Positions 22,430-28,812 of a stretch of DNA of 41,116 bases are shown here, piece by piece. This DNA comes from Hyphomonadaceae bacterium (GTDB taxonomy: Bacteria > Pseudomonadota > Alphaproteobacteria > Caulobacterales > Aquidulcibacteraceae): the NCBI GenBank assembly GCA_021731005.1, contig JAKFYF010000024.1:1-41116 (forward strand), in the 5' to 3' direction. A program made the position numbers and the translations under genes. The first letter of the stretch is position 1; each line of letters starts with the position of its first letter. The notes below the pieces were generated by a model. That model worked only from the letters and a program-made list of their open reading frames with translations, searched no databases and had not been told where the DNA came from.

Positions 22430-23719
22430 GTGCGTGTCGTCGAATGGGCCGGCCTGAACCAAGATGAACGGCGCGCGACTTTGGCCCGCCCCGCCGTGCG
22501 CATCGGCGCGCGGCTGCGCGCCACGGTCGCCGCCATTTTCTCCGACGTGGAGCGCGATGGCTTCGCGGCGGTGGAACGATGGGCATGCGAAATCGACAAT
22601 CGCGCGCCGCGATTTGTCAAGCTTGACGAGCGTATGGTCGCCGGCGCGCGCGCCACGCTCGCCAGCGAGGACCTGACCGCGCTCGCGATCGCCGCCTACA
22701 ATGTCCGCCGCTACCATGCGGCGACCAAACCCGGCGACGCTAGCATCGAGGTCCGCCCTGGCGTCAGCTGCCGGCAGATGTGGTGGCCGATCGAGCGCTG
22801 CGGCCTCTACATTCCCGGCGGCTCGGCACCGCTGTTTTCGACGCTGCTGATGCTGGCGATTCCGGCGCGGGCAGCGGGCGTGCCCAACATCGTGGTGAGC
22901 ACGCCACCCAATCGCGACGGCGAGGCCGAGCCCGCTATCATCGCCGCCGCAGCGCTGTGCGGCTTGGACGGTTTGTGGCTGATCGGCGGCGCCCAAGCGA
23001 TTGCGGCGATGACGTTCGGCGCCGGCCCAGCCAAAGCCGAGAAGCTTTTCGGGCCGGGCAATGCCTATGTCGCCGAGGCCAAGCGCTACGCCGCTTCCAT
23101 GCCCGGCGGGCCGCAGATCGACACCCCCGCCGGGCCCAGCGAACTCATGGTGATCGCCGATGAAAGCGCGCGGGCCGATTTCGTCGCCGCCGATCTGTTG
23201 AGCCAGGCCGAGCACGATGCCGACGCGCAAGTGCTGCTGGTTTCCACCTCGGCGGCGCTCGCCAAGCGCGTTCAGGAAGAACTCGCGCACCAGCTTCCCA
23301 CTTTGCCGCGCGCGGACATCGCCGCTCGTCCGCTGGCGAACGCCCGCTGCATTGTCGTGGAAAGCGCCGCCGCGGCCATCGAAGTCGCCAATGCCTATGC
23401 GCCCGAGCATTTGTCGCTGCAGATCGCCGGCGCCGAGGCTTTGGCTGAAGGCGTGCGCAATGCAGGGGCGGTGTTTGTCGGCCCGTGGAGCGCGGAAACG
23501 TTCGGCGATTATGTTTGCGGCCCCAGTCACGTGCTGCCAACCGACGGCGCCGCGCGCGCCTGGAGCGGGATCAATGTCGCATCCTTCATGAAGTGCGTGA
23601 ACGTGCAGACGCTCACGGAACCCGGCGCGCGCGATCTTTCGCGCGCCGCCGCCCGGCTCGCGCGTCTGGAGGGCCTGGAGGCGCATGCTCGCGCGGCCGA
23701 TTTGCGGGGCGCGCGCTGA
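22430..23719 (+). CDS. hisD: Histidinol dehydrogenase
   Basis: CGLYIPGGSAPLFSTLLMLAIPARAAGVPNIVV, AEKLFGPGNAYVAEAKR, DTPAGPSELMVIAD, LSQAEHDADAQ. GTG start. Confidence 0.95.
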   Translation: MRVVEWAGLNQDERRATLARPAVRIGARLRATVAAIFSDVERDGFAAVERWACEIDNRAPRFVKLDERMVAGARATLASEDLTALAIAAYNVRRYHAATKPGDASIEVRPGVSCRQMWWPIERCGLYIPGGSAPLFSTLLMLAIPARAAGVPNIVVSTPPNRDGEAEPAIIAAAALCGLDGLWLIGGAQAIAAMTFGAGPAKAEKLFGPGNAYVAEAKRYAASMPGGPQIDTPAGPSELMVIADESARADFVAADLLSQAEHDADAQVLLVSTSAALAKRVQEELAHQLPTLPRADIAARPLANARCIVVESAAAAIEVANAYAPEHLSLQIAGAEALAEGVRNAGAVFVGPWSAETFGDYVCGPSHVLPTDGAARAWSGINVASFMKCVNVQTLTEPGARDLSRAAARLARLEGLEAHARAADLRGAR

Positions 23720-25065
23720 TGCGGCGGGCGCCCTATGCCGCGCTTGTCGCCGGGGGCGAGAACCTGGCCGAACCGCCCGCGCCGCCACGCGCGCTGCGCC
23801 AGCGCATGGCGGAGATTTATGGCGTCGATGCGGCTTGTGTCCTCCCGGTTCGCGACGTTGCGCATGGGCTGGAGCTCACGAAGCGCCTGGCGGAAGTGAC
23901 CTATGTTGTTTCCCCAGACGACGAGACCGTGCTCAGCGCCGACGCCGCGCGTGCGCTGGCCGCGGACAAGGCCCTGCTCGTGATCGATGAAAGCCTGATC
24001 GAATTCGCCGACGCGCCTTCGCTCGCGGGCTTCGCCGTCGCGAGCGGCAATATCGTGGTGCTGCGCTCGCTCTCCTACGCCTATGGGCTCGCTGGCGCGC
24101 CGTGCGGGGCAATGATCGCGGCGCCCGCGCTGATCGCTCCGCTTGAGGCGCTGTGCGAGCCCGCGCCGTTGGCGACGCCGGTGATGATGCTCGCGCTTGC
24201 CGCGCTCGATGCCTCGCGCCTGCCCTTGACCGCCGAGCGCATCGCCATTGTAAAGCGCGAACGCGCGCGTCTAGCGGCAGCGCCTGCCGCCGCCGGACTC
24301 GAAGCGCGCGCGGGGGCCGGGCCGCACGTGTTTGTGCGCGTCGCGGATGCCGCGGTGATGCGCACGGCGATCGCCGCCTTCGATCTCGACGCCAAAGAGC
24401 GCGAGCCCGGCCGCTTCCGCTTCGCGGTCGGCGCACCTGAATACAATGAGCGCATCCTGGCGGCCCTGGGGCTTAGTTCCCCCGCGCGCGCGCCGCGCCG
24501 GGCCGAGATCGTGCGCGATACCAAGGAAACGCGCATCGCCGTCGCGGTGGACCTCGATCGTGCCGGAGAAGCACGCATCGACACCGGCATCGGCTTCTAC
24601 GATCACATGCTGTCGCAAGTAGCGCTGCATGGCGGTTTTGCACTGAGTTTGACCTGTGGCGGCGATCTCCACATCGACGCCCACCACACGATAGAGGATT
24701 GCGCCATCGCGCTGGGCCAGGCGCTCGACAAGGCATTGGGCGCGCGTCGCGGCATCGGCCGTTTCGGCTTTCTGCTGCCGATGGACGAAACCGAAGCGCA
24801 GGTCTCCATCGATCTCGGCGGGCGACCTTACGTAGTGTTCAAAGGAGAATTTATCGCGCCGCTCATCGGCGCCTATCCGACGCAAATGACAAGCCATGTG
24901 TTTCGTTCGCTGGCCGAGAGCATGCGCGCGGCGATCCATGTCAGCGTCGAGGGCGACAACGATCACCACAAGACCGAGGCGTGCTTCAAGGCGTTCGGGC
25001 GCGCCTTGCGCGCAGCGCTTCGCGTCGAGGGCGAGGCGCTGCCATCGACCAAGGGCGTGCTGTGA
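23719..25065 (+). CDS. hisB: Degenerate HisC-like domain fused to imidazoleglycerol-phosphate dehydratase (HisB)
   Basis: C-terminal part (from about RRAEIVRDTKETRIAVAVDLD) has TGIGFYDHMLSQVALHGGF, HIDAHHTIEDCAIALGQAL, EGDNDHHKTEACFKAFGRALR. The N-terminal about 250 aa aligns by eye to HisC (VTYVVSPDDETVLSADAAR; LLVIDESLIEFAD; LRSLSYAYGLAGAPCGAMIAAP; RFRFAVGAPEYNERILAAL). Confidence 0.88.
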   Translation: MRRAPYAALVAGGENLAEPPAPPRALRQRMAEIYGVDAACVLPVRDVAHGLELTKRLAEVTYVVSPDDETVLSADAARALAADKALLVIDESLIEFADAPSLAGFAVASGNIVVLRSLSYAYGLAGAPCGAMIAAPALIAPLEALCEPAPLATPVMMLALAALDASRLPLTAERIAIVKRERARLAAAPAAAGLEARAGAGPHVFVRVADAAVMRTAIAAFDLDAKEREPGRFRFAVGAPEYNERILAALGLSSPARAPRRAEIVRDTKETRIAVAVDLDRAGEARIDTGIGFYDHMLSQVALHGGFALSLTCGGDLHIDAHHTIEDCAIALGQALDKALGARRGIGRFGFLLPMDETEAQVSIDLGGRPYVVFKGEFIAPLIGAYPTQMTSHVFRSLAESMRAAIHVSVEGDNDHHKTEACFKAFGRALRAALRVEGEALPSTKGVL

Positions 25066-27128: not shown

Positions 27129-27727
27129 TTCAGCTTGATTTTGACAAAGGCGACGGCCTGGTTCCCGTCATCGTGCAGGACGAAGCGACGCTGCAGGTGC
27201 TCGTGCTCGCCTACATGAACCCGGCCACGCTCGCTGAAACCATCGAGAGCGGCGAAGCCACATTCTTCTCGCGCTCGCGCGGGCAGCGCTGGCGCAAGGG
27301 CGAAAGCAGCGGCAATCGCCTCCAGGTGGTCTCGCTCACGCCCGATTGCGACAACGACGCATTGCTCATGCGCGTGCGCCCGCAAGGCCCCGCCTGCCAC
27401 CGCGGGACGAGTTCGTGCTTCGGCGAGGCCGACGCTCCTGGCCTCGGTCGATTGGCGCGCCTGGAGCAATCCATCGCTCAGCGCGCCGACGCGGATCAGA
27501 CGCAAAGCTACACCGCACGGCTGTTGTCGAAGGGCGCCAAGCGTGTCGCGCAGAAAGTCGGCGAGGAAGCCGTGGAGACCGCGCTCGCGGGCGCCTGCGG
27601 CAGCGAATCCGAGCTCTGCGAAGAAGCCGCCGATCTCGTCTATCACCTGCTTGTGCTGCTGCGCGCGCGGGGCCTTTCGTTTGACGCCGTGCTCGATGTG
27701 CTGGCGAAGCGGGCGGGCGAGAAGTGA
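27125..27727 (+). CDS. hisIE: Bifunctional phosphoribosyl-AMP cyclohydrolase / phosphoribosyl-ATP diphosphatase
   Basis: HisI: VLAYMNPATLAETIESGEATFFSRSRGQRWRKGESSGN, DCDNDALLMRVRPQGPACHRG; HisE: SYTARLLSKGAKRVAQKVGEEAVETALA. Confidence 0.94.
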   Translation: MIQLDFDKGDGLVPVIVQDEATLQVLVLAYMNPATLAETIESGEATFFSRSRGQRWRKGESSGNRLQVVSLTPDCDNDALLMRVRPQGPACHRGTSSCFGEADAPGLGRLARLEQSIAQRADADQTQSYTARLLSKGAKRVAQKVGEEAVETALAGACGSESELCEEAADLVYHLLVLLRARGLSFDAVLDVLAKRAGEK

Positions 27728-28812
27728 GCGGGCCCCGCCCCCGCGCCGGCATTCTCGACATCGCCCCTTACGTCGCCGGCCAGGCGAGTGGGCCGGGCGT
27801 TGCCAGCGTGTTCAAGCTTTCAGCCAACGAAAACGCGCTCGGCGCGAGCCCCGCTGCGCTGGCCGCCTACCGCGACGCCGCGGTGGAACTGCACCTCTAC
27901 CCTGACCCCAATGCAACCGAGTTGCGCAACGCGCTCGCGCGCAAGCACGGGCTCGATCCCGCCCGCATCCTGTTCGGAACCGGCTCGGACGAAATTTTCT
28001 CGATGGCGGCCATCGCTTATCTGGCGCCCGGGGACAACATGATCCAGCCCGCGCACGGCTTCGCCGCATGGGCGATCGCCGCGCGCGCCGTCGGCGGCGA
28101 GGTACGCAACGCGCCCGAGCGCGACGGCGTCGCGGATGCCGATGCGATGCTTGCGCGTGTCAATGCGCGCACCCGCATCGTGTTCCTCGCAAACCCTGCA
28201 AACCCCACCGGTACCTGGCTGCCCTTCTCGGAAGTCGAGCGCCTGCATGCTGGCCTGCCGGAGCATGTGCTGCTTGTGCTCGACGAAGCCTATGTCGAAT
28301 TCGCCCGCGCCGTGCTCGACGGCCGCCACGCCATCAAGCTGGCGGAGCGCGCGAGCAATGTGCTGGTCACGCGGACGTTTTCCAAATTGTACGGCCTGGC
28401 GGCGCTACGCGTCGGCTGGGCCTATGGCGCGCCCGCGATCATCGACGCCCTCAACCGCTTCCGGCTGCCATTCAACACGCCCCGCCCGGCGCAAGCGGCG
28501 GCGCGCGCGGCGCTGGGGGATTATGCGTTCGCCGAGGCTTCGGTGCGTAGCGCCGAAGAGGGCCGAGCGCGCCTGGCCGACACCCTCTCGGCTCACGGAT
28601 TCGCGCCGCTGCCTAGCGCGACCAATTTCGTGACCGCGCGCGTGCCCCATGGGTGCGCCGCCGCCGCGATCGAGGCGGCCCTCGCGCAACGGGGCGTGCT
28701 GGTGCGCGGGCTGACAAACTACGGGCTGCCCGAGTTTTTGCGCGTCAGCGTCGGCCCCGCCGCAGCCATGACTGCGCTTGCCAGCGTCCTGGAAGAGAGC
28801 GTCCGACCCTGA
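27724..28812 (+). CDS. hisC: Histidinol-phosphate aminotransferase (intact)
   Basis: FKLSANENALGASPAALAAY, GTGSDEIFSM, FLANPANPTGTW, LDEAYVEFA, TRTFSKLYGLAALRVGWAYG (PLP lysine present). GTG start. Confidence 0.94.
   Translation: MSGPRPRAGILDIAPYVAGQASGPGVASVFKLSANENALGASPAALAAYRDAAVELHLYPDPNATELRNALARKHGLDPARILFGTGSDEIFSMAAIAYLAPGDNMIQPAHGFAAWAIAARAVGGEVRNAPERDGVADADAMLARVNARTRIVFLANPANPTGTWLPFSEVERLHAGLPEHVLLVLDEAYVEFARAVLDGRHAIKLAERASNVLVTRTFSKLYGLAALRVGWAYGAPAIIDALNRFRLPFNTPRPAQAAARAALGDYAFAEASVRSAEEGRARLADTLSAHGFAPLPSATNFVTARVPHGCAAAAIEAALAQRGVLVRGLTNYGLPEFLRVSVGPAAAMTALASVLEESVRP

Follow-up and report, generated by a model that had tools for sequence, protein, structure and literature searches.

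A shortened, apparently inactive HisC domain at the N terminus of HisB in an alphaproteobacterial histidine operon

The histidine operon of enterobacteria follows the order hisGDC[NB]HAF[IE], which the locus described here shares, while in eukaryotes the fungal HIS4 protein is composed of HisI-HisE-HisD and HIS7 of HisH-HisF, neither of them with a dead HisC domain (PMC1963479). HisC is absent from the fused his genes listed in PMC1963479 and PMC10138114, and because of this absence fusions of HisC-HisB, dead HisC-HisB, and HisD-HisB look undescribed. Direct HisD-HisB fusions are likewise missing from these reviews. Our searches of the open literature gave no description of a HisC-HisB fusion, though such proteins may be annotated in protein databases, and neither hisB nor hisC is mentioned in the main text of an extensive survey of fusions among metabolic genes.

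We analyzed a contig of 41,116 nucleotides from a Hyphomonadaceae bacterium (assembly GCA_021731005.1, contig JAKFYF010000024.1; the whole stretch is called the window below). The initial annotation had placed one uninterrupted reading frame directly at the hisD stop, and its coordinates proved exact: the frame at 23719–25065 comprises 448 codons without internal stop and opens with an ATG that shares bases with the stop codon of hisD (TGATG), HisD ending at 23719. The relevant features, all on the plus strand, are the following:

22430..23719, +, hisD, histidinol dehydrogenase (open reading frame list; TIGR00069, 445.6 bits, above cut-off)
23719..25065, +, fused gene for an apparently dead HisC domain plus HisB, 448 aa (open reading frame list, profile matches, AlphaFold model)
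23719..24486, +, degenerate, shortened HisC domain, residues 1–256 (TIGR01141, E 2e-23; 1fg3, E 1e-16; HisC fold by Foldseek)
23920..23922, +, Asp68 codon at the Asn157 position (alignment)
23986..23988, +, Asp90 codon, counterpart of Asp184, retained in every dead domain examined (alignment)
23995..23997, +, Leu93 codon at the Tyr187 position (alignment)
24076..24078, +, Tyr120 codon at the position of the PLP Schiff-base lysine, K214 (alignment)
24100..24102, +, Pro128 codon at the Arg222 position (alignment)
24493..25065, +, complete HisB (imidazoleglycerol-phosphate dehydratase) domain, residues 259–448 (NF002111, 245.9 bits)
27724..28812, +, stand-alone hisC, intact (TIGR01141, 298 bits)

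The C-terminal part of the protein is a complete HisB dehydratase domain, as had been claimed. It scores above the cut-off of 231 bits of the NCBIfam HisB model NF002111, residues 289–430 match the IGPD family PF00475 with E 7e-58, and the metal-binding histidine motifs HHTIED and GDNDHHKTEA are both there. It is also the only HisB of the genome (one PF00475 match). A HisN-type domain was rejected for the N-terminal part: it has no HAD match in Pfam, in agreement with the annotated difference from the enterobacterial HisN-HisB fusion, and the HisNB model NF003937 covers only the HisB part (164–355) with 282 bits against a cut-off of 443. An enterobacterial-type HisN-HisB fusion was seen in another genome of the taxonomic order to which the window belongs (L202:3537-4598, genome G322).

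Homology and structure prediction agree that the N-terminal part is, as annotated, a degenerate HisC. Taken alone, it reaches 82.8 bits with the hisC model TIGR01141, and the whole protein 80.7 bits, both below the curated cut-off for active HisC (276.55); against Aminotran_1_2 it scores 35.7 bits (E 7e-9; gathering score 19.7), and among solved structures its sequence is closest to that of E. coli HisC (1fg3). An AlphaFold2 model built from an alignment of 30 fused proteins (mean pLDDT 88, pTM 0.84) shows a shortened PLP-fold domain followed by HisB, with ordered secondary structure throughout the HisC part, and a Foldseek search of the PDB with it matched both IGPD and HisC structures (HisC with E about 1e-14). 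Compared with 26 intact HisC-HisB fusions, the N-terminal arm of about 45 aa including LDANEN is gone, the large domain is short of about 65 aa, and the block with PTFxxY is missing. The initial annotation had thus been right about a deletion, but its estimate of 50–60 aa missing from the large domain was too low and did not count the arm.

Transamination by fold-type I PLP enzymes requires the Schiff-base lysine. In our alignment with the same 26 intact fusions (E. coli HisC numbering), this position is lysine in 26/26 of them and Tyr120 in the window protein, NPNNPTG is reduced to (P)DDETV, and GADE/GSDE reads DVAH, so that the motif losses described in the annotation are correct. The counterpart of Arg335 is retained as Arg234. 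With HisC homology and fold but without the catalytic residue, the N-terminal part is a HisC-derived pseudoenzyme domain, and because Lys214, Asn157, Tyr187, and Arg222 are lost together with the arm and part of the large domain, we predict it to be catalytically dead. The aminotransferase step would then fall to the stand-alone hisC at 27724–28812, which the annotation had already recognized as an intact gene of the same operon and which lies above the HisC cut-off. In three species of the window's genus, a second HisC-like aminotransferase with about 31% identity to the window hisC is found immediately 3′ of hisC (L190:1225-1968, L191:10161-10904, and L194:1292-1954).

Where does this domain come from? 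A duplication of the operon's own hisC was rejected, as the two align with only 36% identity over 70 aa. Over its length, the domain can instead be aligned with the HisC part of fusions in relatives, and the window protein and the intact fusions are homologous from end to end (38–59% identity). It descends from a bifunctional HisC-HisB enzyme of Alphaproteobacteria, which many relatives still encode in intact form. Motif-complete, full-length fusions are encoded by, among others, Sphingomonas sediminicola, S. rhizophila, Sphingomicrobium, Hellea balneolensis, Robiginitomaculum, Aquisalinus, and SAR116, and the intact fusions retain NPNNPTG and RTLSKAYGLAG. The fused HisC is the sole HisC above cut-off in 8 of the 12 intact-fusion genomes examined (G254, G214, G028, G039, G364, G246, G295, and G176), while a separate HisC stands beside it in the other four (G184, G027, G035, and G337). 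Sampled genomes with a dead, eroded, or lost domain each have one separate HisC above cut-off, counting G235 with 275.6 instead of 276.55 bits, and a protein search recovered a separate HisC in 30/30 Brevundimonas genomes tested. The state of the fused domain therefore follows the redundancy of its activity.

Among relatives, the fused HisC can be ordered into five stages of decay. The first is the intact fusion (L177, L182-L184, L196-L198, and L203 besides the relatives named above). In the second, the fused HisC is of full length but carries K to S, Y187 to F, and R222 to P (G239, locus L181), accompanied by an operon hisC. The third is the shortened dead domain of the window, present in 9/28 genomes of its genus (the window included, counting genomes at least 70% complete) and in at least 109 of 126 Brevundimonas genomes, a recurrence that chance would not produce. 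N-terminal remnants of about 190–210 aa in another family form the fourth (L165-L169 and L173-L176); compared by hhalign, their profile corresponds to the C-terminal half of the dead domain (E 3.6e-6, probability 87.5, 128 columns) and aligns to the whole fused set with E 5.6e-6, and L172 resembles the remnants of about 190 aa but stands outside this profile. In the fifth stage the domain is absent: sister species in the window's genus have HisD joined directly to HisB in 10 open frames of 632–636 aa plus three more interrupted by contig ends or gaps, and the same arrangement occurs separately in genus g25, from another family of the order (L170 and L171, with further candidate frames of 633 aa or more there). 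These HisD-HisB loci encode about 632–641 aa (in the window's genus L014, L015, L017-L019, L021, L023, L025, L112, and L113). A sequencing or assembly artefact was rejected as the source of the window's architecture, since it recurs in many independent genomes of several families, including single-contig genomes and the isolate Brevundimonas terrae DSM 17329.

As a separate observation, neither HisD nor HisB was found in eight near-complete Brevundimonas genomes (G050, G092, G105, G113, G114, G125, G148, and G156) and four of the window's genus (G007, G021, G024, and G044), which probably are histidine auxotrophs. G050 still has a stand-alone HisC, suggesting that this enzyme also serves another pathway, perhaps that of aromatic amino acids.

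We placed these forms on a concatenated tree of HisG, HisD, HisB, HisH, HisA, HisF, and HisIE from which the HisC columns were excluded; this was a quick tree (LG+G4 without site mixture) with odd composition in some rows. All alphaproteobacterial forms are separated from the gammaproteobacterial HisNB outgroup; intact fusions are basal and dead ones nested. A single death of the fused HisC, i.e., all dead forms as one clade, was rejected (AU p 6e-92), and well-supported branches force at least three changes, so that catalytic death occurred no fewer than three times. Likewise, HisD-HisB as one clade was rejected (AU p 2e-145), and the direct fusion arose at least twice. We read the changes as losses because regaining the lysine and about 100 deleted residues is implausible. 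Whole-operon transfer between lineages may have taken place and would alter who lost what, though not the origin of dead from intact forms. Motif-complete HisC-HisB fusions also exist in Bacteroidota (MAGs of Cyclobacteriaceae, Ekhidna, and Cytophagaceae; L061, L062, L064, L071, and L076) on a branch apart from the alphaproteobacterial ones, possibly as an independent fusion.

The annotation had further proposed that the preserved frame reflects a maintained domain, and evolutionary rates bear this out. We used Brevundimonas for this analysis because relatives in the window's own genus are too divergent, and pooled Nei-Gojobori estimates over nine independent close pairs because all-pairs values are inflated by saturation in these GC-rich genes. 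For the dead domain, dN is 0.049 and dS 0.240 (ratio 0.205), compared with ratios of 0.116 for active HisC, 0.104 for part of HisD, and 0.059 for HisB in the same pairs. Translated in either of the other two frames, this DNA has ratios of 1.85 and 3.25, and differences by codon position number 152/94/477. The low in-frame ratio, the frame controls, and the codon-position pattern show that the dead domain is translated and constrained, and it is retained under purifying selection in Brevundimonas at a ratio less than twice that of active HisC. No stop lies within any listed fused match in Brevundimonas, while in one MAG (G075) the gene is fragmented. These data also bear on the idea that the N-terminal part is untranslated or an artefact and that HisB starts near GTG 24511. 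An in-frame GTG does exist there (codon 265), close to the position of about 24510 given in the annotation, but it has no Shine-Dalgarno-like sequence, and no signal supports the suggestion that it yields a short HisB. Given that most relatives tested also have a start ATG within the end of hisD, overlapping its stop, that the coding pattern is confined to this one frame, and that fused homologues exist in several families including an isolate genome, we regard this idea as hardly credible.

What the domain does is a matter of weighing several readings. We think it rather likely that it is the decayed half of a bifunctional enzyme that now serves as a transaminase-inactive structural N-terminal module of HisB, with the step to a structural role being inferred. 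Comparison among relatives shows the history: the his operon of an alphaproteobacterial ancestor was of gamma type and encoded a bifunctional HisC-HisB, whose HisC half became redundant in the presence of a stand-alone hisC. This half first lost its lysine and PLP-binding residues and later its N-terminal arm and some of the large domain, and in some lineages it was reduced to about 190 aa or removed to leave a direct HisD-HisB fusion. Elsewhere, the remaining HisC-like body would fold and be maintained by purifying selection as the N-terminal module of the HisB polypeptide. HisB enzymes assemble as 24-mers, and because such an assembly carries many copies of any N-terminal appendage, the latter must be soluble and well packed; the module may help the HisB oligomer to fold, stay soluble, or pack. 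As an existing component of this assembly, the shrunken HisC body would have remained under selection on its fold and packing even when it no longer catalyzed a reaction. In general terms, the structural module raised as a possibility in the annotation is supported by the rates, by the confident and ordered structure model, by the absence of stops in relatives, and by derived residues: P43, H49, E147, D164, R167, G201-P202, and R245 are among those conserved in Brevundimonas and the window's group that differ from the majority residue of active fusions, so that this constraint is not inherited from catalysis. Against it, the sister species with direct HisD-HisB indicate that the domain is dispensable there, and the Brevundimonas dN/dS of about 0.2 could reflect just the need not to spoil HisB folding.

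A less probable but serious alternative is that the domain is a fossil without positive role that can be removed only by rare in-frame deletions, with selection merely preventing misfolding or aggregation of HisB. Graded erosion across relatives and at least two complete losses would reflect its slow removal, and constraint is relaxed relative to active HisC. However, the domain's retention across most Brevundimonas genomes, the nearly invariant RSLSLAYGLAG of their dead domains, and the conservation in both lineages of derived residues that active HisC lacks speak against a mere relic.

It is improbable that the domain is a regulatory pseudoenzyme whose old PLP/substrate pocket takes up PLP or a phosphorylated intermediate of the pathway and thereby modulates HisB. 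Brevundimonas retains the counterparts of Asp184, Ser213, Arg222, and Arg335 in 45/45 proteins while the lysine is Leu in 43/45, but preferential retention of this pocket is not borne out, since its residues are kept no more often than others invariant in intact HisC, and the counterparts of Arg222 and Tyr55 are lost in the window's genus. With the same low expectation, a neofunctionalized pseudoenzyme holding PLP or a phosphate compound of the pathway in its retained Asp/Ser/Arg pocket, clearest in Brevundimonas, could control the activity or assembly of HisB, and this would amount to post-translational control of histidine synthesis in some Caulobacterales.

More doubtful still is a docking role, in which the domain would hold the active stand-alone HisC and couple the dehydratase and aminotransferase steps, akin to the scaffold for channelling suggested in the annotation. 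The product of HisB is the substrate of HisC, and HisC enzymes are dimers, which makes such a partnership conceivable. Yet the fused HisC has lost its N-terminal arm as well as some of the large domain, the active HisC comes from another HisC lineage, hisC lies outside the operon in Brevundimonas, and sister species of the window's genus live without the domain, which together speak against it.

Beyond its possible structural role, the domain offers a natural experiment on the fate of a fused enzyme once one activity becomes redundant. Related bacteria display the active bifunctional form, the dead full-length form, the shortened dead form, a small remnant, and clean removal with HisD-HisB, and this system makes it testable whether pseudoenzyme domains persist through function or through difficulty of removal.

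Among known systems, the intact fusions of Sphingomonas, Hellea, Robiginitomaculum, and Aquisalinus have the same domain order at the same place between hisD and hisH, but they keep the lysine, NPNNPTG, and the arm and score above the HisC cut-off, all of which the window domain has lost. Stand-alone HisC (E. coli 1fg3, TIGR01141) shares homologous sequence and fold with it, whereas the window domain lacks the catalytic lysine, most PLP-site residues, and about 110 aa. Fungal HIS4 and eukaryotic HIS7 are likewise multidomain enzymes of the histidine pathway that originated by gene fusion. Enterobacterial HisNB resembles the window protein in that the N-terminal partner of HisB stems from the same pathway; this partner is an active HAD phosphatase (HisN) in HisNB and an apparently dead aminotransferase in the window.
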